Below the pieces are notes generated by a model. It saw only the letters and a program-made list of their open reading frames with translations. It ran no database searches and had not been told where the DNA came from. A stretch of 64,000 nt of DNA from Hyphomicrobiales bacterium (GTDB lineage Bacteria; Pseudomonadota; Alphaproteobacteria; Rhizobiales; Rhizobiaceae): the NCBI GenBank assembly GCA_900472785.1, contig UCJH01000032.1, positions 62,001-126,000 on the forward strand. The letters run 5' to 3'. Of the stretch, positions 29,385 through 56,310 are shown piece by piece. Both the position numbers and the translations under genes were made by a program. The stretch's first letter is position 1; each line of letters opens with the position of its first letter.

Positions 29385-29390
29385 GATGCA

Positions 29391-29445
29391 AAAGAAAAAG
29401 GCCCCCAAACGGTAAACCGTGGAAGCCTCTCTCGTATCTGTGACA
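29391..29445 (-). ncRNA. counter-transcribed RNA (incompatibility RNA) between repB and repC
   Basis: On the minus strand a strong promoter is visible: TTGACT (29480-29475), 17-base spacer, GATTCT (29457-29452). The RNA would start near 29445 and end at TTTTTCTTT (29399-29391) after a hairpin containing ACGGT-TT-ACCGT. About 55 nt long and antisense to the repC leader, it matches the ctRNA of other repABC plasmids, which lowers repC expression and sets copy number and incompatibility. Confidence 0.85.
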
Positions 29446-29537
29446 AGACCGAGAATCGCATTTCCCCGAATCGCAGTCAAGTGTTTTTGGCACCGTTTTG
29501 GTGAGCAAATTTCTTTTGCCTGAAGAAAGGTGAGAGA

Positions 29538-37221: not shown

Positions 37222-37240
37222 TTCTCTATAATGAGCAATA

Positions 37241-37267
37241 CGTCCGATAATGCAAGATTATCGGACG
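37241..37267. repeat. perfect inverted repeat, candidate recombination core
   Basis: CGTCCGATAAT and ATTATCGGACG flank GCAAG; with one extra base the symmetry extends about 4 bp outward on each side. Two 11-bp arms around a short spacer is the design of sites used by Xer-like tyrosine recombinases. It sits 20 bases from the integrase start, so an operator role is the alternative. Confidence 0.6.
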
Positions 37268-37344
37268 TTATTTGTATCCGACAGGCCGTGCGGTTTTAAT
37301 TCGTATTGCTGGTATAAACCGCGCTTATGATTTAAGCTTACCGA

Positions 37345-38298
37345 ATGGATTCGCTCGCGCCCGCCGCTTCAACGACATCGATATGGCCTCAACGCCTTCC
37401 TGCTTGGGCGGTGTCGCGCGGCCGCGACATCCCCGAATGCGACGCTGCCTTCGCCGCCGGTATCGCCCTGAAATCCCTGGATGATCTGATCCGTGCTGAT
37501 CCGCCATGGCTCGGCTGCTGGCGCGATCGGTTAGCCCTCAAATCGGCCGCCGTCGCCGCCAGGATGCTCGGCCGGAACGAGGACGAACAGGCGTTGCGTG
37601 ACGCCATCCTGCTCACTACACCAGGCGACAATCCCGGTCCGGCCGGAAAGCTGTTTTTGGCCACACGATTGCTGGCGCGTCGGACTGGAACAATCACCAC
37701 AGCTTTCGTTAAGGAAGTCGCCGAACGGCTGGGGACGAAGTGGGACGACAGCCTTGCCTCGATCCCCGATATGATCGACTCTACCATCCAGTCCGGGCGA
37801 GCAGCACCCTTCGCGGTGGCGGACCTGATAACGGCGATCTCTGCCGTTCGCCCGGACGCCGAGGCGATGGCCCTCGGGATGGCCGACGTCGTGCTGGCAC
37901 AAAAACTGAAATGGCCGAAACCCGTGCCGCTGCTATTGCCCGAGCGTTTCGGGTCCGCGTTCCGCACCATCGGCGGACGAGGCCGCCTCCAACCGGGAGA
38001 GCCAGCCTATCCGAAAGCGATCTGCCTGGCATTGGTTGACGGCGTTGAGGCAGCGCTGCGGTCCGCCGTCGAGATCGATCGTCGTGCCACACGGTTGCTG
38101 GCCGTAGCGCCTAAGGTGCGGACCAAGGGCGCCGAGCCCGTCATGGGCAGATTGCTGAGCGAGGATGCCATCGCAGCTTCGGCGCCGGGCTTAAAACTGT
38201 CGCGCTGGGCGGCCAACCGACTGTTCGAGCGGCTTGAAACATTCGAGGCGGTGCGTGAACTGTCCGGCCGCTCCTCCTTTCGCATATTCGGGTTGTGA
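37345..38298 (+). CDS. DUF1403-family protein
   Basis: This 317-aa protein is alanine- and leucine-rich, helical and soluble. WPQRLPAWAVSRGRDIPECDAAFAAGIALKSLDDLIRADPPWLGCWRDRLALKSAAVAARMLGRNEDEQALRDA is the DUF1403 N-terminal pattern as I know it. The function is unknown. Its stop overlaps the start of scpB (GTGA), so the two are translated together; a joint DNA-structuring role with ScpB is inferred. It starts 78 bases from the inverted repeat shared with the recombinase. Confidence 0.8.
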   Translation: MDSLAPAASTTSIWPQRLPAWAVSRGRDIPECDAAFAAGIALKSLDDLIRADPPWLGCWRDRLALKSAAVAARMLGRNEDEQALRDAILLTTPGDNPGPAGKLFLATRLLARRTGTITTAFVKEVAERLGTKWDDSLASIPDMIDSTIQSGRAAPFAVADLITAISAVRPDAEAMALGMADVVLAQKLKWPKPVPLLLPERFGSAFRTIGGRGRLQPGEPAYPKAICLALVDGVEAALRSAVEIDRRATRLLAVAPKVRTKGAEPVMGRLLSEDAIAASAPGLKLSRWAANRLFERLETFEAVRELSGRSSFRIFGL

Positions 38299-39011
38299 CG
38301 ATGGCGGGAGCGAGCGCAGCCAAGCCCAGTCGGCGACAAGCGAAAGAGCGACAGCAGGAAGTCCTCTACGATCGCGAGCTCGAGGATCTGCCGCCAGAGA
38401 TGCGCTGGCGCGAGTGGATGCTGCGGGTCGAGGCGGTGATCTTTGCCTCCGCCGAACCGGTCAGCCGCGAGACGCTGGCGCGGGTGGTGGGAAAAGACTG
38501 CAGCATCGAGCTGCTGATCGACGACCTCGTCGAGGAACTGCGGGATCGGCCCTACCAACTGGTATCGGTCGCCGGCGGCTGGCAGCACCGAACGCGTTCG
38601 CGTTACGCGGCCGCGATCCGGGCTTCAGCTGCCCCAACGCGCGGCGCGGCAACGCCGCTGTTGGAGTTCGAGGCGATGGTGCTGATGGCGGTGGGATATT
38701 TCCAGCCGATCACCCGTGGCGAGCTGTCGAATATTTTTAGCAGGGAGGTCAGCCGAGACACCATTGGCAATCTGCGCAGCGCTGGATTTATCGGCTCCGG
38801 GCCGCGGAGCCCAACGCCGGGTGCGCCTTATACCTATGTGACAACGCCACACTTTCTCTCGGCTTTTGGTATGGACACGTTGCTCAATCTTCCGAATATG
38901 GAAGCGCTCGAGGACGCCGGCCTGCTGAGCCGACATGCGGTTCAAAACGAAATCGCCGCCTCGGGAGGCGGCGAAAGCGACACGGACGAGGAAGCGTCCT
39001 TTATTGAATGA
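38295..39011 (+). CDS. scpB: ScpB-like chromosome segregation protein, plasmid copy
   Basis: This 238-aa protein starts at GTG 38295 or ATG 38301. It resembles the kleisin partner ScpB of the SMC complex: RVEAVIFASAEPVSRETLARVV (first winged helix), IDDLVEELRDRPYQLVSVAGGWQHRTR, LEFEAMVLMAVGYFQPITRGELSNIFSREVSRDTIGNLRSAGFIGSGPRSPTPGAPYTYVTTPHFLSAFGM (second winged helix). No smc or scpA gene is nearby, so it would have to work with host SMC or in another role with DUF1403. A decayed relative lies at 42717. Confidence 0.85.
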   Translation: MTMAGASAAKPSRRQAKERQQEVLYDRELEDLPPEMRWREWMLRVEAVIFASAEPVSRETLARVVGKDCSIELLIDDLVEELRDRPYQLVSVAGGWQHRTRSRYAAAIRASAAPTRGAATPLLEFEAMVLMAVGYFQPITRGELSNIFSREVSRDTIGNLRSAGFIGSGPRSPTPGAPYTYVTTPHFLSAFGMDTLLNLPNMEALEDAGLLSRHAVQNEIAASGGGESDTDEEASFIE

Positions 39012-40064: not shown

Positions 40065-42458
40065 TTAAGCTGGAAGAAGCCCACGCTTCTTCCAGTGCCC
40101 AGTGATATTGCGGATCTCCTCGACCGCAGTGCTGCATATCCAGCTTGCATCGTTCTGGGCCTGCTTCGAGCTTTCCAGCGCGCCTTGTGGTGAAGCGCCC
40201 GGCCGTGTCATCCTCTCCAGAGACTTCACGATGCTAGATTGAACGCTTTCGTAGAGCCGATAGCGTTGTGGCACGACGACACCCGAAGCCGGGTTCTTTT
40301 CGATATGGTTGAAATAGCATAGCAGAATGAAAGCGTTCCGGATTGAGCGAGCCGCCCACAGGAGGCTGTTGCTATCGCGAGGATCGTCTTCAATCTTTTC
40401 GATCAACACCTCAGGCAACAGCGTCTTGTGAAAAACATGCTCCAAATAGGAGAGGTTTTTGAGGAGAGACGAGACGCAGAGCCTACCGCGTGTCGTTGCG
40501 GAGAGGTAGACAGAGAACGTCATATCGGCTCTGCTGATATGCGCTTCGATGAAATTGGTTTTCAAAAGGAAGCGCAGCAGGGAAGGAAGGTCCGAAGGCT
40601 GATATCCAAAATCTTCCTGTAAGCGCCTTTCAAGATCCTCCTCGCTGATACTTTTGTCAGAACAGATTTGAATGATGCGAATTTTCTCTAAGAGCGCGTG
40701 TCCGTCTACGGATGCCTTTCGCTCTCTGTCTATGTAGTTGAACACGTTATCGACGTGGCCGCTAAAAGTAGAGTTCGCCACGACATGCCTCTCCGCCGGA
40801 CCGCTGCCAAGCAAATGCCCCTTTGTCGTCACAATGCCCGCAGAATTCTCAAACCATAACCCGTCGTCGAACAGCAATACTTCGACGATTCGATATGATT
40901 TTCGAGTGAGAAATGCGGTTCCTCGATCCGAGGCAAGCCTCTTTATTAGCGCATGAGCGTTCGAGGACCAGTAGTCATCACTCTCGAGCATGTCCGAACT
41001 AAGCATTTGACGGACGGTCCACACGAAAACACGCTCGATGAAACCGAAAAGTTCTCTGAGATTGCCATCGAAGAATTCATAGACCGTCCGTCCTTTCGCG
41101 TAGGGCCCATGCCCGCGCCAGATCGCAATCATCGTCCGCTGGATGACCCGCATAAAATCGTAAACGAATTTCGCCTTGACCTCAGCACTCTGCACGCGAA
41201 CTTCTGGCAGTAATTCGGCAGCTCTCTCAACAACACTAAGGATTGCCGCTAGCCCATGAAGATTCCCTAGCTCATAGTATTGCTGAATTCCTAGCTGTTC
41301 GCTTCTCTTGGCAAATTCGTATTCTAGAAAAGCAGCAGTGTTGCTTCGCATGACAACGATACTGTTGCTTTCCTCGGTTTTGCCGATACGGCGTAGATCG
41401 GTAGGCGCCGAAAGCGACTGGCGGTTCGAAATTATATGGACTATGGCATCCCACTCTTTCGTTTTCTGAAATGCGTCTTCAATCCTCAGCGAGTCCAACC
41501 CATCGAAGACTGTAACAAGGCAGTTCGTCTCCCAAAACACACCTATCAGAAGGATCCGCATCGAGGTCGGCAGGTTGCGCAGCCATTCCATCAGGCTCTT
41601 ATTGCTGTTGCTTGCGGCGGCAAATGTCTCCGTCAACAAGAAATCTGTCACCGGCCCAGTCTTATGCCCCAGCAATGAGGCAAGGGAATCAAGCTCCCGC
41701 TGGAGCATGGCAAGGTGAGCCTCGCAATCCTTCGGTCTCCGAAATTGAAACTTCAACTCGAACTTATCGCCGTCTTTGAAATCAAAGAAGTGATCCAGGA
41801 TCAAATCTCGCGCGTGAATGAACGAAAGATAGTTCGCTAGCGCGGTATCTAAGCTGCTCGTGTCCGAGCGCCACTCCTTCCAGAATTTCAGAAACTCAAA
41901 TCGCGAGACAACAATCTTACTTTTTCGCAAAGCGTCGGAATTCTCAGAAATAAGATACTTTGTCAGCGTCGATTTCCCCGATCCGGGCGCCCCAATAACG
42001 GCCAAAGAATGTCGCGGATTGCCACCGGCTCTAAGTCTCGGAATTAGATGTTGCACGAACCAGTGATTGGCTGAGGCCATGCTTTGATTTATGGGCATTC
42101 CGTCGGCCCACAGCGTAGTTCGATCAGCTAGTTTCCTATAGGCGCTGTCCCGAGAGCGACGTACGCAGCGGTCCCCATGAAAAACAAGCGAGGATCTCCA
42201 AAGGTTGATGTTCGTCCGCGTAAATTCTCGCTTGCTGGCCGCTTTTCGGATCGCCTTAAAAACTCGGTCGATCGCCTTTGCATCGCCAATCTCACTATCA
42301 AAATTCTCTGATGTGACCTCTGGAGATCGTTCGGAGCGTTTGAGCCTGGTCGATGCACCTTTCATCTTGGGCATTGAAACTCGATCGTCACCCAAGACTT
42401 TAGAGTTCAACGAGGGGATCTGGGCAAATAAGTCGAGAAGATTATCTCTGGTTGCCAT
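40065..42458 (-). CDS. orphan P-loop ATPase (STAND/AAA-like), candidate defence protein
   Basis: This 797-aa protein has its ATG at 42458 behind GGAAG. The ATPase core has GAPGSGKST (Walker A, residues 156-164), LVTVFDGLDSL (Walker B with two acids) and an arginine-bearing HIISNRQSL. The N-terminal 150 residues include LWRSSLVFHGDRCVRRSRDSAYR and no recognised domain. The C-terminal half is helical with a winged-helix-like stretch (EEDLERRLQEDFGYQPSDLPSLLRFLLKTNFIEAHISRADMTFSVYLSATTRGRLCVSSL). There is no transmembrane segment and no obvious nuclease motif. The base composition is more AT-rich than the plasmid backbone, suggesting recent arrival. Large single-gene ATPases in such places are often anti-phage sensors; that is inference. 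Confidence 0.6.
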   Translation of the reverse strand: MATRDNLLDLFAQIPSLNSKVLGDDRVSMPKMKGASTRLKRSERSPEVTSENFDSEIGDAKAIDRVFKAIRKAASKREFTRTNINLWRSSLVFHGDRCVRRSRDSAYRKLADRTTLWADGMPINQSMASANHWFVQHLIPRLRAGGNPRHSLAVIGAPGSGKSTLTKYLISENSDALRKSKIVVSRFEFLKFWKEWRSDTSSLDTALANYLSFIHARDLILDHFFDFKDGDKFELKFQFRRPKDCEAHLAMLQRELDSLASLLGHKTGPVTDFLLTETFAAASNSNKSLMEWLRNLPTSMRILLIGVFWETNCLVTVFDGLDSLRIEDAFQKTKEWDAIVHIISNRQSLSAPTDLRRIGKTEESNSIVVMRSNTAAFLEYEFAKRSEQLGIQQYYELGNLHGLAAILSVVERAAELLPEVRVQSAEVKAKFVYDFMRVIQRTMIAIWRGHGPYAKGRTVYEFFDGNLRELFGFIERVFVWTVRQMLSSDMLESDDYWSSNAHALIKRLASDRGTAFLTRKSYRIVEVLLFDDGLWFENSAGIVTTKGHLLGSGPAERHVVANSTFSGHVDNVFNYIDRERKASVDGHALLEKIRIIQICSDKSISEEDLERRLQEDFGYQPSDLPSLLRFLLKTNFIEAHISRADMTFSVYLSATTRGRLCVSSLLKNLSYLEHVFHKTLLPEVLIEKIEDDPRDSNSLLWAARSIRNAFILLCYFNHIEKNPASGVVVPQRYRLYESVQSSIVKSLERMTRPGASPQGALESSKQAQNDASWICSTAVEEIRNITGHWKKRGLLPA

Positions 42459-43662: not shown

Positions 43663-44958
43663 ATGCCGGACAATCCCAGAGAGACGAAGTCTAGTATCGG
43701 CCGCGCATACTGGTCGTTCCACGGAAAGCTCTTTGCTGACTTGAAACCCATGTTCCTCCCGTGGGTCTCAATTTCAGTCTTAGATGGAGTGGAGCGCATA
43801 GCTGAAGCCGATAGCACGTCTGAGATTGCTGCACTCCATCGCAAAATGATGTCGATGCTCGATTCACTGAGCTACTCCGATGAACGCGTGCAGAATGACT
43901 TCAAATCTCTTTACGACAAGGCCAACGTCCTAGCGCATCCGGTCACCGAAGCCTTTCTCAAACACTGCCATTCGATCAACTCGATAACGCGCAATCATAG
44001 TCTTAGCGGTGTTGACCCAGAAATTTTGCGTGAGATCGACTTACTGGCGCATCAGGATCCGGCGTACAAAAGATTCGCTGATGACATGAAAAAGAAAGTC
44101 AGCGCAAAAATAGCGCCTGGGGACATCGTCAGCTACAACCAATTCTTCGAAATATTCTGCGAAGCCACCGTCTTACGCTACCTTCGGGCGCGTGAAGGTC
44201 TCCAGGTAGCCAGAGTCCCGGAAGCCGGAAAAGATGAGGAAAGTCGCCCAGATTTTCAATGCTGGATCGCCGACGAATCGTCATTCTTTGTGGAGGTTAA
44301 GACCCTGGATGTTGTTGGAGGGCAATTCCGACACGGCGAGATGATGGCTGACGCAATCAACGTTCAAATCGACATCGACAAACAGATCGCGGCTGGGTCT
44401 CGGATAGCGATGGCCGAAAGCGAAATCGACCCTTATCGACCGTACGGCGGGTCTGAAGATTACGATCCGGGCTCTTTGATAAAGGTAATCGATACGTTGA
44501 GAGCCAAACTTAAGCAGGCCTTTAAACCAAGCCAATTCGCTATGGGTCCGACCTTCGCTCTTGCGGTGATTGATAGACTTGAACAATTCGGTAGAGCCGT
44601 TGATCTCGCTCCCTACTACCAAGAAAATCAAACCTGCCTAAGCGGCGTGTTTTGGCATAGCGCTTTTGGTCGAGAGGGCACTCCAATCTTCAAGCACCCC
44701 GATTTCGAGGGCAAACCCTCTCTGGAAGGCCACTTGGCTCGGCCGGGCTACTTGATCGACAGCACTAACCCCTTTACCGGGGCGGGTCTAGTGATCATGG
44801 CAAACTCTCAGACCGAGCGTGTTGCTTACGGACTAAAGGCTGACCACCAGCCCATCGGGGACTGGACGCGAGAGCAATCAGATCACGCGCTGCAGATTAT
44901 GTGCGACTTCCATAACGATCAGGGTAACACCTATGGGTATAGGCTCTACAGCTCGTGA
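43663..44958 (+). CDS. PD-(D/E)XK nuclease-like protein
   Basis: This 431-aa protein has its ATG at 43663 with AGGAG 6 bases upstream. A restriction-endonuclease-like core lies around residues 165-215: FFEIFCEATVLRYLRAREG (helix with Glu), RPDFQCWIADE (Asp, about 197) and SFFVEVKTLD (E-x-K, about 212-214). Spacing and hydrophobic strands fit the fold well. The N-terminal 150 residues are helical (LYDKANVLAHPVTEAFLKHCHSINS) and may bind a partner. The gene converges on the receiver/kinase pair. It could be the effector of that cassette or an independent defence gene. Confidence 0.65.
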   Translation: MPDNPRETKSSIGRAYWSFHGKLFADLKPMFLPWVSISVLDGVERIAEADSTSEIAALHRKMMSMLDSLSYSDERVQNDFKSLYDKANVLAHPVTEAFLKHCHSINSITRNHSLSGVDPEILREIDLLAHQDPAYKRFADDMKKKVSAKIAPGDIVSYNQFFEIFCEATVLRYLRAREGLQVARVPEAGKDEESRPDFQCWIADESSFFVEVKTLDVVGGQFRHGEMMADAINVQIDIDKQIAAGSRIAMAESEIDPYRPYGGSEDYDPGSLIKVIDTLRAKLKQAFKPSQFAMGPTFALAVIDRLEQFGRAVDLAPYYQENQTCLSGVFWHSAFGREGTPIFKHPDFEGKPSLEGHLARPGYLIDSTNPFTGAGLVIMANSQTERVAYGLKADHQPIGDWTREQSDHALQIMCDFHNDQGNTYGYRLYSS

Positions 44959-45008: not shown

Positions 45009-46961
45009 CTACTCCTCTTTCAAAATGATTGTCGGGTCGACGCTCAACAGATCCTCCATCGCCTCGTCAGATAACTTGAGCGTAAACTGCAGCCACGCAC
45101 CGTCTTTCCCGGCGTCAGGCCTCGCCGCTATTTTGATCGTTGTCCCTAGAGGACCTTTGTCTTTCGTAGCCGCACCTTTAATAAGGAAACCGCTCAACAG
45201 CTGATCTTCATTCTTCTCTTTCAAGAAGTCTGCAAGCTTCGCGTTATCGTCAGGTGAGAGCGTCGAGGTATCAACAGACTTCAGCTTATCAACCAGACTA
45301 TGAATTGATGAGCGGCGAAGCAAAACGCGATGCCCCTTCACTGCATCACCTCGCTCAGGAAGCACCGTCGCCGTCGCCGGCTGGCCGATGTCCAGTACTT
45401 CGAACGTAATCTTATTGCCGTCGGTCTTCCGCAGATGAGCTGTCACTTGGGCATCAACACCCATAATTGGAGACACGCTCAAGCCGATGCGACCAAGGTC
45501 CGTAAGCGCGAGGCGTTGCGCCTCTTGGGCATAAAGCGGACGGAGTGTGCCAAGGAACTCAGCGCCTTTTACCGTGCCGAGCGATCCCGGGCCCGCTATC
45601 GGAAATGTCTGCAGAGCTTTCGGATTCCATTTCAGACTGTACGCTTTTTTCTTATAAAAAATGAACTGATCGGCTGAAGCGCTTTCCTGATCGAACGAAC
45701 GCAATTCGCCGTCCATGGTTAGAACGCGTTTGGCTTTGGGGCCAGTCCCGCGTGGCACCAGATCGCAGTCTGGCGTGAGTACGACCATGACCTTGTTCTC
45801 GCTGTGCTTGATGAACATGTCGCCCATCTTACGCCGGGATGCGCCTGGTCGCTCATCGACACGAACACGATTGAAAATTCGTGCAATCGGGACTGAGGGG
45901 CCATCGAATGCCCCTTCGATACCTTTACTCAGTTCGGCGTCGTCGATCTGCTTGAATGCATCACTTTCCCAGTTCACATTCTCAGCGACCATTGCTCGAA
46001 GGTTTTCGCCGAAAAGCCATTCGAGATATTCCCCCATCCTCTCGCCTTCTGAAGCAAGGCGGAACCGGAAAAGATAAGCAAAGTCCTTCGGCTCTAGGCT
46101 ACCTATTTGTTTTAAGACCTCGGCCATGGCGTTTTCGGCACCGGAGCGCCATTCCTTAAGTGCTTGATGGAGCACTTTCCCGAAGACATAGCCCTGGCTC
46201 GTGTCGAGAAGAGCATCGGCTGCTTCATGCTCAATCTTGAGCGCGTTCGCCTCACCGCTTATCCAGCCCTTCTGGAGAAAACGGAAGCGAAGTGCCATGA
46301 CATTTTCACCGAGCGACTCAACGTCTTGCCGAAAGCTCTGAGCCTTTTCCTTTACTTGCTCCGACGACATCAGAACGATGGCTGGCTCCTCAACAGGCCT
46401 CGTTTTGAGCAGCCTACTCAGCAGTTCGACTGATGCTTTGCGTGCTTTGGTCTTCACCGCGGCGCTTACATTATCGCCCGTCGCATCTGGGCTCAGATAG
46501 TAATCAAGAAATACAACCTGCGGCTTAAATACCTGAAACCTCTCTTCTCCGTCTAGAATCCCCGAAAGCTGGATCGACACGTCTTGTCCGCATTTTTTGA
46601 GAAGAGCGATCAGAGGGTCTAGAATGGAAAGGGTCAGACCCTTCAACGTTTTGAAGTGACCGCCCGGATCGAATCGATCTTCACGCGTGTCGACATAGGC
46701 GAGATATAGAGCGCGCATGACATCTTGAAAGGCTTCAGCGTTCGGGTCGTCGTCCCGAACGGCTTCGACAGCAGACTGCAGGTCCTGGTCGGCTACGCCC
46801 GCATCGCGACAGGCATCCAATCCATCGATCCCCTCCATGAACTCGAGGATGTCACCCGTGATCTCGGCGGCAACCGGCATATCATAGACGTCGTCAATTA
46901 GGAGAACGCGCTCAATCTTGTTGTACGCGAAGGCTTCGACAATTCGCTTTTCGTGACCCAT
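45009..46961 (-). CDS. response-receiver-like protein of the defence cassette
   Basis: This 650-aa protein starts 6 bases after the kinase-like gene ends. The N-terminus RVLLIDDVYDMP (acid pair at about 23-24) and VVFLDYYLSPDATGDNV (Asp about 151) match the first and third strands of a CheY-like receiver, and EPAIVLMSS matches the fourth strand with its Ser. The two acidic sites are about 127 residues apart instead of about 45, so a helical insertion splits the receiver. The remaining 450 residues show no known output domain; HSENKVMVVLTPDCDLVPRG and AQEAQRLALTDLGRIGLSVSP recall uncharacterised defence-linked receiver proteins. There is no HTH, so it is probably not a transcription factor. 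Confidence 0.65.
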   Translation of the reverse strand: MGHEKRIVEAFAYNKIERVLLIDDVYDMPVAAEITGDILEFMEGIDGLDACRDAGVADQDLQSAVEAVRDDDPNAEAFQDVMRALYLAYVDTREDRFDPGGHFKTLKGLTLSILDPLIALLKKCGQDVSIQLSGILDGEERFQVFKPQVVFLDYYLSPDATGDNVSAAVKTKARKASVELLSRLLKTRPVEEPAIVLMSSEQVKEKAQSFRQDVESLGENVMALRFRFLQKGWISGEANALKIEHEAADALLDTSQGYVFGKVLHQALKEWRSGAENAMAEVLKQIGSLEPKDFAYLFRFRLASEGERMGEYLEWLFGENLRAMVAENVNWESDAFKQIDDAELSKGIEGAFDGPSVPIARIFNRVRVDERPGASRRKMGDMFIKHSENKVMVVLTPDCDLVPRGTGPKAKRVLTMDGELRSFDQESASADQFIFYKKKAYSLKWNPKALQTFPIAGPGSLGTVKGAEFLGTLRPLYAQEAQRLALTDLGRIGLSVSPIMGVDAQVTAHLRKTDGNKITFEVLDIGQPATATVLPERGDAVKGHRVLLRRSSIHSLVDKLKSVDTSTLSPDDNAKLADFLKEKNEDQLLSGFLIKGAATKDKGPLGTTIKIAARPDAGKDGAWLQFTLKLSDEAMEDLLSVDPTIILKEE

Positions 46962-46967
46962 TCCGCC

Positions 46968-49319
46968 TCAACCCATATCCAGTACAAACATGTTTATGCG
47001 GCCTTTCCGCACTCTCCCCACGTTAGTATCCATTGCCAACTTCCATTTGTGGTATTCAGCAAGTTCCCTGGCGATATACAGCCCAAGACCTCGACCCTGC
47101 CCGGTGGGCTTGGAGGTTATGAACGGTTGAAATATCCGCTCGCTGCGATCTTCCATCACTCCCGGTCCGTTATCTTCAACAGTTAACGCTCGGGAATCTG
47201 CGTCCAGGACAACGTTGAGGCGAGGAACGAAACTGTCTTCAAATTTCTTCTGTTGTTTCAACCAGTAGGCTGCGTTGACGAACAGATTTTCTAGAATTTG
47301 AATGACCATACCTTTTACAGCGTTCACGACATAAGGCCGTTCAGGCCGTTCAAATTTGACCTCTATACCATGTCGCTCAAATTCCTTCAGATGATTGGAC
47401 AGAACGTCATCGACAACGGTGGCGAGATCGAACTTGGTCTTGGATTGCCTCTTCTCCCCGGTAAGTTCGTCGAAAGCCGCAATTCTTTTATGTAACGTTT
47501 TCAATTGCTCACGCAGCGAGTCGATCGTCGCCTGCCGGAGACTGCCGGCCGAAAGCAAATCCATGGTGTGACCGACAGCTCGCTCCAGCTCGTGAAAGAT
47601 GAATTCGGTCATCAGCCCAACGCCGGCCAAGTATACAAACTTTTCGCGCTCTTCGTCGGCCTCATGTATGACTTTTTCAATGCGTTCGACCAAGGCGGCC
47701 GATTGGCCGGAAAGCTGTGAAACGCTCCTCGAGAGGTCGTCAATCTCATCATGGGCGCTTTCCCCTACGATATCCTTTAAGCGATCGAGAGCACGATTTA
47801 CCCTGATACGAGTGTCAGTTGCTAGTTTGGTATCCTCATCTGCAGCACGACGTTCAATCTGCTCAATTTTGTCGGCCTCGTTGATCAACCCACGCATCTC
47901 GGAATGGACAACCCACATGAGGATCTTACGCAGTGCGTCTGATGCGTCCGACTGCATGAGCCCTTCACGATTGGTCTGTTCGCTTAGAGCCGTATGCGGA
48001 GTTTCCAATAAAACGCGACCTAGAACTTGCTGACGATTTAGCTTGAACCCTGCTGATCCAAAAGCGATCTCGTCCAATTCCAGCCAGTCGTTAGACGGAT
48101 CACCGTAAGGGAGGATACGGAACCCATAGCGATAAAGCATCGGACCGCCGCTCCAATTAGAGATTTCGCGACGCGTATCTGCGGCCTTTTGCGTCAGCCC
48201 AGAAACGGCTTCGACAACCCTACGATTGAACCAGTAGATGTCGCACGAGAATTTTCCTAGTGCTCGAAGGGCCGATGGACGAACGGCTGTAAGACTGAAT
48301 GCCGCATGTCCACGCTTGGCCCTCCTTTTAATCACGGTTTGGGTCAGGGAATAGACACTCGCACCACGTTCATCGATCCTGATGCTCCGATGGCGAAAGC
48401 GATAATCCACCGAACCGGAAAGCACTGGCTCGTCGCCGATCATCTCGAAGGTGACGTGGCAGTAGGCGTGAGCCGAATCGAGAAGTTCACGGGGAATGGA
48501 CGGCACGCTTATACGACGACCGTTGAATCGTGCATTTAAAAGCCTGTTCGCGGAACCGGGGACGAAAGGATCGATCATTCTCGCGATGCGGCCCTGCAAC
48601 ACGTCGGTAAATCGAGCTTCGGTCCAGTCGCTTTGTAGCGACGAAATAATGATTTTCGTGCCTTGCAAAGATGACGCCGATTTCTCTTCTCCCAAAACGG
48701 GTTCGATCTTGATGTCTTCAACCGGCTTGCGGTTGTCGTGGGAAAAGAGGGACCAATCGATATCTAGGAGGTTCCAATGGGCTTCGCCGGAACGCGTAGA
48801 GACGACCCGTAATCTGTCGCCTAGCCGCATTGCCGACAGGCGGCCAATGCCTTTGTCACCCAGGTTATGGCTGCCAGCCAGGTTTTCGTCGCGGCGTGAC
48901 CTGGTCCCGATCGTCAGGAAAATGTCTTTAAGTTGGAACAACGACATACCGTGTCCGGTATCGCGGACTTCGATAAAGTTGAGCTCCGCATAGTGCTGGC
49001 TCAACCTATTCTTAAACTCCTCCGCATTTTTAGCAGCTCTCAAAGAGGCCATCATCTGAACCGCGCTTGGGTCCTCGGCATCAACCAGGCAGCTCTGGAC
49101 ATAGTCCGCCACGTCTGCGATCGGTTTTCGCTCCTCATCGATCCGTGCGACCGCCTCCCTGAAATCGGCAAAGGTCAACGATACATGGATGGAGAGCTCC
49201 ACTTGAGGAGAGCCCGCATCGACGGAGTTTTTGATGAGTTCGTAGATCGCGACTTCGTCAGAGCTAATCAACTCCTTACCAAGTTCAAGGAGAGTGCGCG
49301 CTTCAAATTTAAAGCTCAC
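46968..49319 (-). CDS. dual-GHKL ATPase / histidine-kinase-like sensor
   Basis: This 783-aa protein (GTG start) has two GHKL ATPase modules. The first, at residues 1-190, is Hsp90/MutL-like: DEVAIYELIKNSVDAGS (N box), EVRDTGHGM (G1), GDKGIGRLSAMRLG (G2). The second, at the C-terminus, is kinase-like: MTEFIFHELERAVGHTM holds a candidate phospho-His near 576, then GMVIQILENLFVNAAYWL (N box), LTVEDNGPGVM (G1), IFQPFITSKP (F box) and GRGLGLYIARELA (G2). A coiled-coil region joins them. There is no membrane segment, so it senses something in the cytoplasm. With the receiver gene it forms a phosphorelay-like pair downstream of the phosphorothioate genes. Computational surveys have described similar pairs in conflict systems. 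Confidence 0.75.
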   Translation of the reverse strand: MSFKFEARTLLELGKELISSDEVAIYELIKNSVDAGSPQVELSIHVSLTFADFREAVARIDEERKPIADVADYVQSCLVDAEDPSAVQMMASLRAAKNAEEFKNRLSQHYAELNFIEVRDTGHGMSLFQLKDIFLTIGTRSRRDENLAGSHNLGDKGIGRLSAMRLGDRLRVVSTRSGEAHWNLLDIDWSLFSHDNRKPVEDIKIEPVLGEEKSASSLQGTKIIISSLQSDWTEARFTDVLQGRIARMIDPFVPGSANRLLNARFNGRRISVPSIPRELLDSAHAYCHVTFEMIGDEPVLSGSVDYRFRHRSIRIDERGASVYSLTQTVIKRRAKRGHAAFSLTAVRPSALRALGKFSCDIYWFNRRVVEAVSGLTQKAADTRREISNWSGGPMLYRYGFRILPYGDPSNDWLELDEIAFGSAGFKLNRQQVLGRVLLETPHTALSEQTNREGLMQSDASDALRKILMWVVHSEMRGLINEADKIEQIERRAADEDTKLATDTRIRVNRALDRLKDIVGESAHDEIDDLSRSVSQLSGQSAALVERIEKVIHEADEEREKFVYLAGVGLMTEFIFHELERAVGHTMDLLSAGSLRQATIDSLREQLKTLHKRIAAFDELTGEKRQSKTKFDLATVVDDVLSNHLKEFERHGIEVKFERPERPYVVNAVKGMVIQILENLFVNAAYWLKQQKKFEDSFVPRLNVVLDADSRALTVEDNGPGVMEDRSERIFQPFITSKPTGQGRGLGLYIARELAEYHKWKLAMDTNVGRVRKGRINMFVLDMG

Positions 49320-49463
49320 GTTGTTTCGGGTTGTCTAGAAAAATCGAGCAAGGTTCAACCCCTCCTGTATTTGTAACTCGGTACTGTTCTGCACGTTTAA
49401 GCAAAATGCCACCCTGAGTGAATTTACCAATTCCCTTCCCGTAGAAGGCTATTTGAAATTCCT

Positions 49464-49492
49464 GTTATAGTCTAATAGCTCGCGACTCCTAA
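49464..49492 (-). promoter_or_regulatory. possible promoter for the kinase-receiver cassette
   Basis: On the minus strand TTAGGA (49492-49487), a 17-base spacer and TATAAC (49469-49464) lie at the end of sspH, 145 bases before the kinase-like gene. The -35 is weak. If real, the cassette can be expressed apart from the ssp operon. Confidence 0.3.
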
Positions 49493-49494
49493 TT

Positions 49495-52400
49495 TTAGGT
49501 TGCACTGTGGCTATCATCTTCCCTCTGATGGATCATATCCTTCCGCACTGATCCGATCGCTGACACAATTTCGGAGATCAAAGCTTCCGTCGCGAATGGG
49601 ACTTGAGCATAAATAAGCCCCTGTTCGCCCTCCGCCCGGATAATCATATGGCCTTTGCCCAAGAGTCTTTCGGCGCCGCGTTCGCCGAGAGCGATTTCGG
49701 AAGTGCCTTCGGAATCCACCCGTAAAATGAGCCGATTGCCGAGTTGGGACCGCAGCTGCATAGGCATGACATTCGCTTCAGGTCGCTGAGCCGCGAAAAT
49801 GAGGTGAATGCCCGCGGCTCTCGCCTTTACGCCAAGCCTGCCAACCGTTGAGGTTACCGCAGCGCGATAATCGTCGGTTAGCATCCATTCCGCGAACTCA
49901 TCGTGTATGATCCAATAAGTGGGCAGGGCATCCTCGGGCAAAGCTTTGCGGTTATAAGCGGTGATATTTGGTACTCGGGCCTCTTTGAAAAGCCGGTAGC
50001 GACGATCCATCTCAAGCACCATGTGCTCAAGTTGGTCGATAGCTGTCTCTTGTTGATCGATGATGCCGCCTTCCAGGTGGGGAAGGGCATCAAAGGCAAA
50101 GTAATCGACGCCTTGTTTCGGATCGATCAGCACTATCCTCGCGTGGCGTGGATCATTCGTTACAGCGATTCCCAAGATGATCGATTGCATCAGGACCGAT
50201 TTTCCTGAGCCGGTACTGCCGGCAATCAAAGTATGCGGTGCATGCTTATGGCTGGGCGAAAGCACGAAAAGCTCATTGTCGTCCTCTCTTACCCCAATGG
50301 CCAGGTTCTGATTTCCGGTCGGTGACACGACCGGCTTCCATCTGCTCCAAAGACTCTGAAGGTCAACGACCTGTCGTTGCGAGCGCGCGACATAAACAGC
50401 GATAGCACCGGGCTCTGGTCTTACCGAGATGATGTCCAGGCGATGGGTGGTCAGAAGCTCGGACCGGCGTTTGAGTACCTGTTCCACGGTTAAATTCGCA
50501 CTTCCGCTGAAGCGAAGAATGGCCGCGTTGGGTGTGAGCTTTTGATCGATCAGTTTTGCTTGCAGGCCGAGCTGTTGGAACGCGCTGCGAGCCATCATAG
50601 CTGTACTCGCTAGCCATTCATCGTCGGCCTCCGTTTGTGTCGGCGCTTTGTCGAGATGTTCTTCAATAATATCCGCGACAGTTCGCTCCGCCGAGAAGGC
50701 GGGTGACTCTTTCGATTCAGCTAGTTTTGACCCGGCTAGCTCGTCAATGGCTGGCACAGGGGAGCGCTGCAGGTCATCCACATTCACGACAGGAGCGGGC
50801 ACTGATCTCGCCGAATGGCCAGCTCGGACGGGCGGATCTGGCGTTATGCCGGGCGTGTGCGGTTCCGGTACTTTGCCGTAGATAGGATCTATGGACGTCA
50901 GAAGCGCATTAACGTTTGCGTTGGCGAGATACGCCGTGACTAGCGCTTTTAGGTCTGCGCGACCAAAAATCATTTGCCTGCTCGCCGGCGCTCCGGTTAC
51001 TTCGCTGAAATCCGTCACATTTGCTCCATCAAGAGCCGTGGGAACGAAGACATGGCTAAAACCAACGATTTCGAACCGGGCGCGTCCGTCTCTGATCAGG
51101 CGCCGCCATTCCACGAGAGGTACGATGCTAGCGGCCGGGATCTGAATTCCATCCAGCAACAGATCGCCCAGGCGTGAAAGCCATGACTCGCGGTCCAGGC
51201 GGTCTGGCCCAGCCAGAGCATCGACAATCCGGCGCATCGTGTCGCGAAGCTGTTTTTCCGACTCTTTGCGTTTTGGCGGGAACGACACCGCGTCGACATA
51301 CTTTGCCTCCGTCACGATGATCCGCAGACTAAGCTGGCCTGTGGCGTCGATCGCAGGAGACAAAGCTAGAATATCCGCTTGGGTTTCCTCACGGGCTCCA
51401 AGCCAACTTGCGTAGTCGTCTAGGAAATACCAACCAACGAGACGATTGTCATCGAGGGACTGCCGAGCAAGAAACCGGCTCAGGACGATGCCGATGAGTT
51501 CGCCCGCCGCCTCGCCGCGTTTTGCCGCGCGTAAGACGATGTCCCCGGAAATATCGTTGGCGTCGCCAATGAAGCGGTCTGCAAGTCCATCGACTTCATC
51601 GGCCGAGAGATCGAGTTGTAACTCTTCGAGCCGGCGCCTTACCATGGCGCGAAGCAACGTGAGAGGGGCACGCGATGAAATCACGACGTTGCGGCCCTGC
51701 GTCGCGGACTGCTTATAGCGGATCACCCGAACGCTTTGGTTTTGGAGTTGGCGGCGATCAAGAAGTTCATCGTAATTGACGACCCACGCACCCAGATCAT
51801 GGGTTTCTTCGAAGATCCTTGCTGTGCGATCGTCCCGGAAATCAAGTTGGCGGACCGGCAGCAGACGCTTTCCGTCCTGCAGATCTTCCGCATCCTTCAG
51901 GAATGCAGTTGTCGCGGCCAGGTACGCCCAACCCTCCCGGCTTTGAACTGGAGAGCACAGATAGACGCTCGATTTTAGGTCGTCCATCGCGCCTGGCCGG
52001 CGGCGCGACCACCGTGCGGGAAGGAGACTCGCAATGTCTGCCGGATCAGCTGACTCTCGGTACCATTCGACGGATGCATGCCGGGAAATGACATCCTGAC
52101 TGAAAACGATGTCGTACGGCCGTCCGTCCCGAGGATCTGGCGGCGGCGCCTGGTCTGCGATCACGCTAATGCGGAGCCTTGCCATGAAGTCTTGGGTAAT
52201 TTCCGAGGCTGCAAGAACTTCGGCCGATCCGCCGGTGCTCGTCAAAATGGATCGGTAAATATCACGAAGTCGAGTTCCATCTGTGTGACGTAACATCACC
52301 TGGCATCGCATGTCCTCGTCGTCATTCAGTTCGCCCAGGCCTTCGACCAACTGCTGGGGGAGACGCGCTGAATCGCAGTTATAGAGAACAAGCGACATGT

Positions 52401-54783
52401 TCGCTCGTTCGTGCGGATGCAAATTGAGGTAGCGCTGGGTCAGATCCAGCAAGGTGTTCGTGCCGGCCTTTGCATCGTCATTTGTTTCACCTCCGCCGAC
52501 TCCATCGAGAACAGGTCGTTCATGAAGGGAATAGTCGCCTTGATGATCAGCCAGCGACAGGAGGTCGGGCTTTCGGCCGCTCCAGGAGACGACGACCTCA
52601 GGGTAGAAAACGTGCCGCATATCTTCGGCGAGATCTCTGAAGAACAGCTTCGTGTCGCCTTCCAGGCCGCCGGGCACGTCAATGATTTTGCGTACAACCT
52701 GTTGAACGAGATGCGCTTTGCGCCAAACTGCCGCCAAGCGCAGCGGGTGCCACGGGGCAACGATGGCGGCTGCCGCCCCATCTCCGACTGGTGCTTGTCC
52801 CAACTCCAAGAGAGGGCGCAACAGCAACTCTTTGTTGCGATCCCCAGGCGCCAAGGTTCGAACGAGATCAAGAAGCTCTGCATAGCTCGTTGCCTGGTCG
52901 CGACACACCGGGTTAGAGGCGCCCTCGTTCCGGAACGCCCTAATCGCGTTTTGATACTGCTCGCAAAAGATTTCGAACGCGGCAGACAGCTTTTTCGCTA
53001 CGGCCGCGTCGATGAGCTCCTGGTCGACCGCTGCTTTGAGATTGGTTTTCCAATTCAGCCGCAGGTCACGCTCACGCCTGTAGGTCGGGACGAGTGACCC
53101 TCGATCGCGGTCGTAGGCAGGAACGAGCGTTTTCACATCTGAGAGGTCGATCGAACCTGGCCGCCGACCGGCCATACCGGGCTCTCGGCCAGATCGAAGG
53201 GCCACAAACGCGTGCTCCGATAGACGATCCCAATCGTCCGTCAACTGTGAGGAGATGACATCGGGTCTATACTTCCAAATCAACTGCGCAGATGCGGTTG
53301 ACGTCCCTCCTTCAAAATCGGTGGTTTCAAGTTCCAGCTGAAACTTTAGCTGCAGCGCTGCTTTCGCAAAGGATCGGTTGACCGCCGATTTGTCTTTAGC
53401 ATCCTGCCAACCGCGTAACACCGAGGGAAAGTCCATCAACGAGCCAAATTCGATGATGACGTCCGGACCCAGCAACCGCTGCAAGCCAGCATAGCGCAGC
53501 GAGAAGAACAGGCCGGCTTCGGTGTTTAAGCTGCGAAGGTCTCGCTTCGTCAGCGAGTCGCATCGGATGGTGAGAATTCGGCCAACACCAACCATTGCAC
53601 GAGCGTTGAGCGTGTCCATCATCATCGCAAGGCCTGCCAGGAAGTCTTCGGTTTCTAGCGGACGCCCGTAGATAAATTTGTCCCAGGAAGATTTGAGTTT
53701 GCGATCCTCCCTGATCTCATCGCGGTGGCTTTCGTAGAATTCGATATCTTCAGGCTCCGGGCTGCCGGTGGTTTTCCTCCGGGCGAGAAGCTCTAGATAC
53801 TCATCATCTTCCTTGGAAAGGAGGTCCTGCGGACCTTCGGCGTAGAATCGCTGAGTGTCTTGTCCAAGGTTGGTTTTTTCTCTCGCCAGGCCCTCGAAGA
53901 GCGGCTTTACATGCTCCCAGAGACAGTTCGCCAAGGCCTCCGAACTTGAGTTCCAGGCGGGCCGGCTTTCGATGAAAAGCTCGACTACCGGGTGGATGAT
54001 CTCAGGAATTACATCTCGTGCCTTTTCGAATGCATCCCGCAACTCGGACTCCGAGATGACGATTTGGTTCGGATTCTGTTTGAGCAGATAGGGATGTCGT
54101 TTACGGCGCAGCCCAATATACTCACGCTTCCATACCGATGCATGGCGGCGAGACCTGTCTTTTATGCCCGCGAAGGCCGCCGGATCGCGAGGTAGCTGAA
54201 GCGCTGGCAGGGCATATCCTAGTGCTTCGATGATCGGGTACCCTTCATCTATCACTGCCTCCCTGGTCGCTACGATGTATCTGGCAAAGCGTTCAAGAGC
54301 GACCGAGCCCACCTGGCTAAGCCCTGCGAGGGACCGCTCCCACCAGGCTTTCGCATCATCTGTTAGTGCAAGACCAGCGCTCGCTGACGAAACCCAAGCG
54401 GGCAAACGCTCAATGAGTTGAGCCGCTCCAATAGGTGTGACTTCGTGGAGGGACATATCTTCAGCCTGTCCCTCATCCGCACTCGCGTTTGTTATGAGGA
54501 AAGCCGCCTTATCGCAATCGGCGCTTCGGTAAAACGTCGCATTACGGTCAGTCAGGACTTCGTCAGGTAAAGCGTATCCGTCGAAAAGGGCACGGGGCAA
54601 TTTGATGTCGACACGTCCGTTCAAGAAGACATCGGTCAGGACAGCACGTGTGACGGCAAGTGTCTGGGGAATACTCAGGCCATCCAACAGGAATCTGGCA
54701 GTCCCTGCCTCTCCGCCGGCATCGCCCAATTCCTCCTTGAGGATCGAGACTGCAACTTTCCCAATCAGTTCGTGGATATCCAT
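49495..54783 (-). CDS. sspH: SspH/DptH-like restriction protein, FtsK/HerA-type motor
   Basis: This 1762-aa protein is the largest component of the restriction half. The C-terminal motor domain has LIAGSTGSGKSVLMQ (Walker A, about residue 1523), ARIVLIDPKQGVDYFAFD, TYWIIHDEFAEW (Walker B, about 1626) and IFAAQRPEANVMPMQLRSQLGNRL, an FtsK/SpoIIIE translocase set. In the middle, TQADILAL (about 1135) and LSLRIIVTEAKYVDAV (about 1157-1160) look like a PD-(D/E)XK nuclease core. That would combine DNA pumping with cleavage. DndH/DptH/SspH proteins share this size and C-terminal motor. SspFGH is reported to damage DNA lacking phosphorothioate. It follows sspG by 6 bases. Confidence 0.85.
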   Translation of the reverse strand: MDIHELIGKVAVSILKEELGDAGGEAGTARFLLDGLSIPQTLAVTRAVLTDVFLNGRVDIKLPRALFDGYALPDEVLTDRNATFYRSADCDKAAFLITNASADEGQAEDMSLHEVTPIGAAQLIERLPAWVSSASAGLALTDDAKAWWERSLAGLSQVGSVALERFARYIVATREAVIDEGYPIIEALGYALPALQLPRDPAAFAGIKDRSRRHASVWKREYIGLRRKRHPYLLKQNPNQIVISESELRDAFEKARDVIPEIIHPVVELFIESRPAWNSSSEALANCLWEHVKPLFEGLAREKTNLGQDTQRFYAEGPQDLLSKEDDEYLELLARRKTTGSPEPEDIEFYESHRDEIREDRKLKSSWDKFIYGRPLETEDFLAGLAMMMDTLNARAMVGVGRILTIRCDSLTKRDLRSLNTEAGLFFSLRYAGLQRLLGPDVIIEFGSLMDFPSVLRGWQDAKDKSAVNRSFAKAALQLKFQLELETTDFEGGTSTASAQLIWKYRPDVISSQLTDDWDRLSEHAFVALRSGREPGMAGRRPGSIDLSDVKTLVPAYDRDRGSLVPTYRRERDLRLNWKTNLKAAVDQELIDAAVAKKLSAAFEIFCEQYQNAIRAFRNEGASNPVCRDQATSYAELLDLVRTLAPGDRNKELLLRPLLELGQAPVGDGAAAAIVAPWHPLRLAAVWRKAHLVQQVVRKIIDVPGGLEGDTKLFFRDLAEDMRHVFYPEVVVSWSGRKPDLLSLADHQGDYSLHERPVLDGVGGGETNDDAKAGTNTLLDLTQRYLNLHPHERANMSLVLYNCDSARLPQQLVEGLGELNDDEDMRCQVMLRHTDGTRLRDIYRSILTSTGGSAEVLAASEITQDFMARLRISVIADQAPPPDPRDGRPYDIVFSQDVISRHASVEWYRESADPADIASLLPARWSRRRPGAMDDLKSSVYLCSPVQSREGWAYLAATTAFLKDAEDLQDGKRLLPVRQLDFRDDRTARIFEETHDLGAWVVNYDELLDRRQLQNQSVRVIRYKQSATQGRNVVISSRAPLTLLRAMVRRRLEELQLDLSADEVDGLADRFIGDANDISGDIVLRAAKRGEAAGELIGIVLSRFLARQSLDDNRLVGWYFLDDYASWLGAREETQADILALSPAIDATGQLSLRIIVTEAKYVDAVSFPPKRKESEKQLRDTMRRIVDALAGPDRLDRESWLSRLGDLLLDGIQIPAASIVPLVEWRRLIRDGRARFEIVGFSHVFVPTALDGANVTDFSEVTGAPASRQMIFGRADLKALVTAYLANANVNALLTSIDPIYGKVPEPHTPGITPDPPVRAGHSARSVPAPVVNVDDLQRSPVPAIDELAGSKLAESKESPAFSAERTVADIIEEHLDKAPTQTEADDEWLASTAMMARSAFQQLGLQAKLIDQKLTPNAAILRFSGSANLTVEQVLKRRSELLTTHRLDIISVRPEPGAIAVYVARSQRQVVDLQSLWSRWKPVVSPTGNQNLAIGVREDDNELFVLSPSHKHAPHTLIAGSTGSGKSVLMQSIILGIAVTNDPRHARIVLIDPKQGVDYFAFDALPHLEGGIIDQQETAIDQLEHMVLEMDRRYRLFKEARVPNITAYNRKALPEDALPTYWIIHDEFAEWMLTDDYRAAVTSTVGRLGVKARAAGIHLIFAAQRPEANVMPMQLRSQLGNRLILRVDSEGTSEIALGERGAERLLGKGHMIIRAEGEQGLIYAQVPFATEALISEIVSAIGSVRKDMIHQREDDSHSAT

Positions 54784-54789
54784 CTCTGA

Positions 54790-56310
54790 TTACATCCTGA
54801 CTGAAAGTGGGTTTTCGACGTAAGCGCAAGCGTCAGAAAGACGCCTCAACATACCGAGGGTTCGCAGTCGTCGCTCAAGGCGTGCTGAGTTCATCTGGAA
54901 GGATTTTCGATCAAATTCATCGTCAGACAGTACCTGCACAGCCTCGCGTTCGCCGATAACAAGACCGTATCTTCGGTAGAGAAGATCCAAAAACTCGCTA
55001 TAGTCCATGCGGGTTTCAACGTTCGCCATGATCAAAGACTTCAGCAATGCGTCTGTTGGGGCGTAACGGAGCTGACTTGTTCCCCGCCGAGATACCAGTC
55101 CGGCCCCTGCGCCGTACGAGCGGTGAACTGCTGCGACATGCTTACGATGTCGCGCCTGGGCAGCTCGTTTCAAGTCCGCTAAAAGCTCAGCCTCATCCGG
55201 TTGCCCGCTGTAGTCGTCTTCTTCCGGCCAGCGCACGATGTCGACAAGCAAACGTCGGCAGTCAGGGAATGGCGTCTCCCCAAGGCGTCGGCGCTCCCAC
55301 TCCTCGCTTCTGCCAATGGCATCGATATAGGCATCGACTGCCCTCGACGGCAGCGTGTCATTGGACTGGAAATTCGAAATCGACAATTCGCGAACCGGCG
55401 TCCGTTTGGGAGCGATGATCTCACAAATGAAGTGCGGCTTTGCTGAGAAGCAATGCGTGGCTGCGACGAGAAGCTGGTAGCGCAGCAGGTGCAACGCGGT
55501 GAGCGAAGCCAGGTGGGGATAGGTATCAAAGCGCGGAAGGGGGCCGCGCAAAAGCGAAAGCCAATCTTGGCCTAGATCGTCAAAGCTCTCGTGCCGCGCG
55601 TAGGGAAGATAGCTATTGCCCCGCGTCGACCGGTCTTCATCATAGTCCGGCTCCATTAATTGCAGAAGGCGATCGCAAGGATCTCCGTCCAACATCTTGG
55701 CAATTTCGGGTGCCAGCTCGGTCGCATATGCCGAGCGGCACAGCATCTGGTAAACCAGCTCACCGGGCAGGCCAAAGTTGATATATTCGCGCGATGCTGT
55801 CAGGCTCAGATCTTCGTAAAGCGCATGGCGTCCAAACGGAAATACGAAGCGAGAAGACCACCGTTTGTTGGGCCCATTCTCGATCGTTGTCCCACGCAGC
55901 ATGGATACCAGCGCCACGAAGTCCGAGAACGAGTTGAACCGTTTGCGCAGGTACGAGAAATCTCTAAGAGGTACTCCTTGCGCACGATTGGCAATCGCCG
56001 ACAACCATTTGTCCCACGATGCGCTGTCAGCCAATTTCTCGTCGGCAATCCGCAACATCGGCTCGTTATTGTAGAGAATGTTTCGGACATACATCCGCTG
56101 CGCCGGTTTAAAGCGCAGCGGATACGTCTTTCCTTGGCCATCAAGGAGCGACTGGTCTCTATCCTTTGCTTCGGCAACGCCGAGAAATTCCAGGAAAATC
56201 AGCCAGGGGGTCGTCGCGTCCCAAAGACGATGACCCCAAATTTGCTCGTCGATCCACATATCGTTTTGCGGGTGATCATTTCGCGGAGGTGGGGGAAGGG
56301 TCTCAAGCAA
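54790..56310 (-). CDS. sspG: SspG/DptG-like restriction component
   Basis: This protein has 506 aa from a TTG at 56310 that overlaps the sspF stop. GAGGTGA lies 5 bases before it and supports this unusual start (the next in-frame ATG is codon 18). The N-terminus (MWIDEQIWGHRLWDATTPWLIFLEFLGVAEA) is Trp-rich; the rest is mostly helical without a known enzymatic motif. The C-terminus (EFLDLLYRRYGLVIGEREAVQVLSDDEFDRKSFQMNSARLERRLRTLGMLRRLSDACAYVENPL) reads like a winged helix. DndG/DptG proteins are likewise about 450-500 aa with no clear catalytic site. The assignment depends mainly on gene order between SspF- and SspH-like genes. Confidence 0.72.
   Translation of the reverse strand: MLETLPPPPRNDHPQNDMWIDEQIWGHRLWDATTPWLIFLEFLGVAEAKDRDQSLLDGQGKTYPLRFKPAQRMYVRNILYNNEPMLRIADEKLADSASWDKWLSAIANRAQGVPLRDFSYLRKRFNSFSDFVALVSMLRGTTIENGPNKRWSSRFVFPFGRHALYEDLSLTASREYINFGLPGELVYQMLCRSAYATELAPEIAKMLDGDPCDRLLQLMEPDYDEDRSTRGNSYLPYARHESFDDLGQDWLSLLRGPLPRFDTYPHLASLTALHLLRYQLLVAATHCFSAKPHFICEIIAPKRTPVRELSISNFQSNDTLPSRAVDAYIDAIGRSEEWERRRLGETPFPDCRRLLVDIVRWPEEDDYSGQPDEAELLADLKRAAQARHRKHVAAVHRSYGAGAGLVSRRGTSQLRYAPTDALLKSLIMANVETRMDYSEFLDLLYRRYGLVIGEREAVQVLSDDEFDRKSFQMNSARLERRLRTLGMLRRLSDACAYVENPLSVRM

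Follow-up and report, generated by a model that had tools for sequence, protein, structure and literature searches.

SspABCD-SspE was reportedly described by Xiong and co-workers in 2020. SspABCD-SspE and SspABCD-SspFGH were both treated by Wang et al. (Wang et al., 2021, PMC8092258). The available text of that paper gave 2,211 of 2,678 sspBCD loci (printed as 83.9%) as lacking sspE or sspFGH, raised the question of other restriction partners and suggested non-defence roles for orphan SspBCD; it did not mention a kinase-receiver pair. According to the accessible part of PMC12421847, 61.91% of A. baumannii genomes carry Ssp, and 5,518 of the 5,530 genomes with Ssp have no accompanying sspE; it also remarks once that a two-component system lies close to the Ssp of A. 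baumannii global clone 2, which has no nuclease.

Two-component-like pairs with a paraMORC domain, HEF_HK (PF19191) and Response_reg_2 (PF19192), were described by Bellieny-Rabelo et al. (2021, PMC8011034), and the MORC/paraMORC GHKL ATPases of restriction systems by Iyer et al. (2008, PMC2292703). The architecture of the pair reported here is therefore already in print beside R-M genes (PMC8011034). The terms 'phosphorothio', 'DUF4007' and 'SspB' were absent from the main text of PMC8011034, and no such pair was seen in the available portions of two papers on phosphorothioate and BREX-type systems (PMC10853773, PMC12839542). A sequence-only reading of the locus had stated that similar pairs were predicted in conflict systems and had no known worked-out link to Ssp. 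The A. baumannii remark is the single mention of an Ssp-pair link found in the open-access literature, to which the search was confined.

Gene layout and predicted domains of the pair

The window, the 64,000-nucleotide stretch of DNA that was analysed, carries a kinase-like gene (KIN, 46968-49319, minus strand, 783 aa, GTG start) followed after 6 bases by a receiver-like gene (REC, 45009-46961, minus strand, 650 aa). The preceding genes on the same strand are, in order, sspA (cysteine desulfurase, 63460-63999, cut by the window end and complete in extended locus L037), sspB (DUF4007, 62517-63500), sspC (AAA+, 59072-62566), sspD (PAPS-reductase-like, 58228-59082), sspF (56303-58147), sspG (54790-56310) and sspH (FtsK/HerA-like, 49495-54783). 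SspB, C, D, F, G and H were assigned with PADLOC, SspB and SspD also with Pfam. The sspH stop codon is 175 bases from KIN (gap at 49320-49494, minus strand). Positions, shared strand and both spacings were as the sequence-only reading had them. A simple scan of the gap, which is weak evidence, gave no promoter- or terminator-like site. No ribosome site clearly belonging to the GTG start of KIN was evident (49320-49360, minus strand); an AGGAGG in that stretch lies upstream of a TTG-initiated frame of 11 codons, the TGA of which overlaps that GTG, and a coupled leader is possible. The pair is on a 158-kb contig that also carries genes for a relaxase and an integrase and, at 27151-30752, genes of repABC type; the contig is therefore probably a plasmid.

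Other genes of the same island were recorded. A 431-aa protein (43663-44958, plus strand), convergent with REC and 50 bases from it, has a PDF...FFVEVKT stretch that by eye resembles PD-(D/E)xK nucleases; it gave no Pfam, NCBIfam or PADLOC match and was not recurrent in the other loci compared. A 797-aa P-loop NTPase (40065-42458, minus strand; NPHP3_N at 26.5 bits, just above cut-off) is a STAND-like candidate. Mutually related integrase genes were present near the ssp island in 9/33 pair-bearing loci (window 36085-39011; L004, L005, L007, L008, L013 and L040 among them). On rhizobial plasmids the island often adjoins repABC or VapBC genes, a shared integration hot spot.

KIN matched HATPase_c_3 (61 bits) and HATPase_c (66.8 bits) above the Pfam cut-offs, in agreement with the two GHKL domains first read from the sequence. 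In an AlphaFold2 model (mean pLDDT 77) the N-terminal ATPase module (residues ∼1-483, 47871-49319, minus strand) matched Hsc82, TRAP1 and MORC3 with Z 17.8, 17.5 and 17.4 over 293, 289 and 304 residues. The C-terminal module (residues 625-783, 46971-47447, minus strand) matched histidine-kinase catalytic domains with a best Z of 19.3. The two modules are joined by a long helix (458-590), a low-confidence stretch of the model, with an H-box that contains H576 (codon 47592-47594, minus strand). This predicted phospho-histidine was conserved in 31/31 kinases in the alignment of relatives. HATPase_c_3 was found in 19/19 KIN relatives; E27, N31, D120, G122 and G124 were conserved in 30/30 rows having a residue there, and G154, G157 and G159 in 31/31. 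KIN has the intact N, G1 and G2 GHKL motifs and S5-like domain of MORC/paraMORC proteins together with the H-box histidine and catalytic ATP-binding domain of two-component kinases, and is predicted to be a MORC/Hsp90-type GHKL ATPase joined to a histidine-kinase core. No 19-residue window in KIN or REC exceeded 1.3 (Kyte-Doolittle), in line with the soluble protein that had been proposed for KIN.

REC gave no credible match in Pfam, NCBIfam or PADLOC. Its structure model (pLDDT 78) had a receiver fold over residues 15-271 (NtrX Z 11.7, KdpE Z 11.1), and the earlier receiver-like assignment is borne out by fold, with no sequence-family match. The receiver part (residues 1-245, 46227-46961, minus strand) holds a helical insert at ∼36-123, between the first strand and the remaining fold, and is followed by helices and then by a conserved beta-rich part (residues 372-500, 45462-45848, minus strand) with a GD...CD...W...Q...RxG motif. 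C399 and D400 (codons 45762-45767, minus strand) were each conserved in 32/32 receivers. D24, D153 and K231 were likewise conserved in 32/32 and D23 in 31/32, and position 199 was S in 31 and T in 1 (n = 32); on its fold REC has the DD, phospho-Asp, S/T and Lys of a receiver. The phosphorylation sites had originally been placed at H576 and D151. The histidine stands, and the predicted phospho-aspartate moves to D153 (codon 46503-46505, minus strand). None of 19 receivers gave a match to an HTH family, in keeping with the original description of REC.

The window's KIN gave no match to the HEF_HK model. Its relatives matched weakly (14/19 at E <= 1, best 7.3e-5), and the kinase of A. baumannii locus L038 scored 18.8 bits against a cut-off of 24.1. 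Response_reg_2 was found in 0/8 and 0/19 receivers, nor did it match the partner in L038. Because the window's proteins match neither Pfam model, they are best classed, on sequence profiles, as divergent relatives of HEF_HK/Response_reg_2 and not as members. Neither protein matched a PADLOC Ssp model, and neither is homologous to SspE, SspF, SspG or SspH. Among phage records, two metagenomic fragments had kinases 24% identical to KIN.

The REC profile aligned with partners from R-M loci (hhalign E 1.7e-4); for the C-terminal part the score was 29.05, against 21.9 for the best of 100 shuffles. Partners in L064 and L065 were matched (E 1.9e-9 and 7.3e-9), those in L047, L059 and L066 weakly. In 385 genomes of the class, a weak search with this profile, which scored up to three candidates per genome, gave the window's own genome alone among the matches listed. 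A viral fold library yielded no match at E <= 0.001, and REC had none among the sequences of solved structures. Judged from the model, the C-terminal half of REC is a candidate output domain.

REC as a phosphorylation-gated MazF-like RNase, which would make the pair a switchable toxin for abortive infection, was considered. E. coli MazF was among the top Foldseek matches of the whole model (probability 0.98-0.99, TM to target 0.51-0.58), and the region has a GD motif and a beta-rich fold. However, the Foldseek E-values were 0.04-0.06, and the profile scored 13.1 against 14 PemK/MazF proteins, within shuffled decoys (best 14.6 of 60). With neither this comparison nor the search of solved-structure sequences supporting the Foldseek hint, an RNase of this kind was rated very unlikely.

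Linkage of the pair to ssp genes

Loci were collected with REC or KIN, not ssp, as the query. The 33 loci comprised 7 of 8 plasmid records from one search, 20 genome loci, 5 further plasmid loci and the window. Of the 16 top plasmid records, 12 were among these loci, L090 was added later and H17, H23 and H24 were judged from match lists alone. The linkage count left out L010 and L011 (short contigs), and the sspFGH count also L019.

Genes of the ssp system stood beside the pair in 31/31 evaluable loci, window included, within 1.1 kb in 29/31 and at 4-4.5 kb in L018 and L040. SspD lay within ∼13 kb in 16/16 plasmid records having a full-length KIN relative (at least 28% identity). Near more distant double-GHKL/HEF_HK loci ssp genes were found in 0/19. 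Six of these were loci of weaker KIN relatives (23-28% identity; L043-L048, 6 of the 17 records H25-H41), which adjoin DNA methylase genes and not ssp. The other 13 came from a HEF_HK model search of 398 genomes of the phylum (L059-L071, 13 of 27 matches), for which absence of ssp genes was the only feature scored, methylase neighbours being recorded for L043-L048 alone. By record titles the pair clade covers Pseudomonadota, Bacteroidota, Planctomycetota, Chloroflexota, Fibrobacterota and Myxococcota.

The Ssp-linked kinases formed one side of a tree branch with support 100/99 (30 rows vs 14). Long branches (L046, L048, L069) and fragments (L010, L011) had been excluded, and the clade persisted with these rows restored (SH-aLRT 96). 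KIN and REC overlapped by 4 bases in 15/33 loci and were no more than 12 bases apart in all except L040. In five loci (L016, L017, L024, L026, L039) the order was sspC-KIN-REC-sspD in a single direction.

For this clade the coupling of the pair to Ssp is real. The sequence-only reading had named in advance one finding that would speak against it, a pair occurring equally beside unrelated defence genes; at 31/31 against 0/19, the pair is not scattered among such genes. The same counts, across six phyla, weigh against the pair being a defence-island passenger with no working link to Ssp. Its place on mobile elements and plasmids, adjoining integrases, would suit a passenger, as would the double-GHKL pairs of other clades beside R-M genes (PMC8011034), but this explanation was judged exceedingly improbable.

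In A. baumannii locus L038 the kinase was 100% covered at 28% identity, with an adjacent receiver, and the genes are convergent with sspDCB. The two-component system remarked on in PMC12421847 would be this pair. Genes annotated endonuclease, transposase, transposase and excisionase follow the Ssp locus (L038:24096-29634), in an arrangement that could be read as resembling Tn7-type elements.

Seen from SspB, the pair is rare. SspB was present in 8 of 385 genomes from the class and in 11 of 398 from the phylum, the window's own genome being in each count; in the stretches read, the pair was in 0/17 of the other SspB loci. It was present in 16/71 plasmid records with SspD. Of the 17 pair-less loci, 3 had sspFGH, 1 had SspE and 8 had a cassette with another MORC-type ATPase. 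SspABCD would therefore appear to have several alternative companions, of which KIN-REC is one.

The recurrent cassette comprises an SF2 helicase (∼545 aa), a MORC-type GHKL ATPase (∼600 aa) and a PLD-type nuclease-like protein (∼310 aa). It was confirmed with Pfam at L030:2797-7204, L034:359-4836, L051:15316-19668 and L018:3095-7475, and found in part in L036, L054, L055, L056 and L033. Its MORC-type ATPase was in 8/17 ssp loci without KIN-REC and in 1/33 with it, and the cassette is a candidate for another restriction partner of orphan SspBCD. A family of ∼800-aa proteins occurred in four KIN-REC loci without sspFGH and in one other ssp locus (L004:8499-10916, L014:4499-6901, L015:11988-14420, L040:20624-23044, L035:14843-17281); three members had weak, below-cut-off HATPase_c_3 matches. 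In L002 (18044-21876, minus strand) genes for a 530-aa protein that begins like a receiver and for a 747-aa protein without a Pfam or PADLOC match are convergent with REC, a second signalling-like pair behind KIN-REC.

Relation to SspFGH and exchange between cores

The pair had been suggested as a layer of control that activates or restrains SspFGH. Its place immediately after sspH, seen in L009, L041 and the window, speaks for such a switch, as does the presence of sspF, G or H in the flanks of 15/30 loci. In the other 15/30 none was found; the flanks covered 4.5-16 kb only, and sspE or sspFGH may therefore lie elsewhere in those 15 genomes. A single SspE query gave none in the 33 loci. Neither sspFGH nor the helicase-MORC-PLD cassette nor a GHKL-like gene of the ∼800-aa family was seen in the flanks of 10/30 loci, L038 being one of them; PADLOC was run on some neighbours of these 10 loci, L012 and L038 excepted. 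Another of the 10, L026, has an SNF2-helicase-like gene that could be an effector.

Two Hymenobacter were compared directly. H. elongatus (L017, with the pair) and H. yonginensis (L088) had SspF/G/H 95.0/97.3/94.6% and SspD 87% identical, while SspA/B/C were 64/59/55% identical. No pair was present in the 24.8 kb plasmid stretch of L088, and the same SspFGH therefore exists with and without the pair alongside. One pair type (KIN 78-84% identical) likewise accompanied SspFGH in two loci, L007 and L013; in L004 and L014 it adjoins sspDCBA, and SspFGH is missing there. Together with the five insertions inside sspBCD and the loci that lack sspFGH, these comparisons weaken SspFGH-specific control. 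The pair is probably not a layer on SspFGH, and a role in switching SspFGH restriction on or off was considered distinctly unlikely. The alternative offered with it, a second effector module, fits the loci better.

Exchange of the pair was seen between closely related cores. The window and L013 had SspF/G/H 98/99/91% identical, with KIN at 39% and REC at 25%. Against L007, SspC was 86%, SspH 88% and KIN 39% identical; across the window, L007 and L008 the ranges were 83-86% for SspC, 88-89% for SspH and 33-39% for KIN. DNA similarity between the window and L007 or L008 runs from inside sspB to ∼100 bases before the sspH stop and then ends. Over 17 shared loci the distance correlation was r 0.945 for KIN-REC, 0.655 for KIN-SspC and 0.972 for SspC-SspD. 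By these sequence comparisons KIN-REC appears to behave as an exchangeable cassette. As a subunit of the complex KIN would be expected to co-vary highly with SspC; the correlation was 0.53-0.66 across two runs, and this candidate was rejected. On the SspC tree, pair presence needs 6 changes among 41 rows, and one branch of 15 rows has the pair throughout; nearly all pair-bearing rows were fetched through the pair, so no rate follows from this tree.

The main rival to a defence role is that the pair regulates SspABCD modification, a relay adjusting the amount or place of marks, for example in replication or stress. A regulator devoted to a single complex usually co-varies with it. KIN tracks SspC loosely (r 0.655; SspB, C and D give 0.97-0.99 with one another), deeply different pairs lie beside near-identical cores, and a close core occurs without the pair. 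The sspC-KIN-REC-sspD order in five loci argues for regulation, as do the constant neighbours of the pair, which are the ssp genes and not sspFGH, and the non-defence roles suggested for orphan SspBCD in the available text of PMC8092258. Control of modification was rated rather unlikely overall.

Proposed role and comparison with known systems

The explanation preferred here, put at slightly under an even chance, is that the two genes form a single, exchangeable signalling cassette devoted to phosphorothioation by SspABCD, and most likely a separate defence arm beside the two known ones, SspE and SspFGH. A dimeric MORC/Hsp90-like clamp of KIN would engage DNA or the SspB/C complex and sense whether a mark is absent. 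Its ATP cycle would, via the long helix, switch on the kinase core, which would phosphorylate H576, and the phosphate would pass to D153 of REC, as the conserved residues and folds suggest. Phosphorylated REC would then free its C-terminal, beta-rich part, which holds the invariant Cys-Asp. Given that no HTH family was matched, this part may act on the infected cell or the invading DNA directly and not via transcription. Where SspFGH is present, it and KIN-REC would be two arms side by side.

Several observations sit less well with an own arm. The pair was rare with Ssp in evenly drawn genomes (0/17; 16/71 on plasmids). It was enriched with SspFGH (15/30 vs 3/17; Fisher p 0.03, relatedness ignored and a guide only), as an SspFGH partner would be. 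REC could not be identified with any known nuclease or toxin, and near-identical cores with SspFGH would hardly need the pair if it were the only effector.

Pairs of this kind lie beside sulfur-marking genes in several phyla, deeply different versions adjoin near-identical marking genes, and the pair may therefore be a missing partner in phage defence. It is a candidate partner for part of the sspBCD loci without sspE or sspFGH, and would be a likely partner to name for the Ssp of A. baumannii, which almost always lacks sspE according to the accessible part of PMC12421847. Phosphorelay signalling, joined to MORC-type ATPases, would thereby enter phosphorothioate defence. A stronger version, held as a tentative possibility, makes KIN-REC a third, self-sufficient phosphorothioate executor, in which a MORC-type clamp would sense missing marks and the phosphorelay would unleash a receiver-gated Cys-Asp effector. 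If this is true, a share of 'orphan' SspBCD, including the Ssp of A. baumannii global clone 2, would have its restriction partner, and swapping of pairs between near-identical Ssp cores would reflect an arms race with phages.

Like SspE and SspFGH, KIN-REC is a module accompanying the same modification genes. The two-component system remarked on in PMC12421847 has neither its domains nor its spread described in the accessible part of that paper. In the available text of PMC2292703, GHKL + S5 proteins near DNA-modification genes were proposed to loop DNA and so link recognition to cleavage. KIN shares the module and the setting, but those ATPases go with SFII helicases and nucleases, whereas KIN goes with a kinase core and a receiver partner. 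The pairs of PMC8011034, as described in its available text, are among the closest known systems. As in KIN-REC, the genes are adjacent, the kinase has an N-terminal HATPase_c_3, an H-box and a C-terminal HATPase_c, the proteins are soluble, the partner has receiver residues and long loops, and the genes adjoin DNA-modification genes. Those pairs accompany C5 methylases and type II R-M genes; KIN-REC has ssp genes as its neighbours in 31/31 loci.
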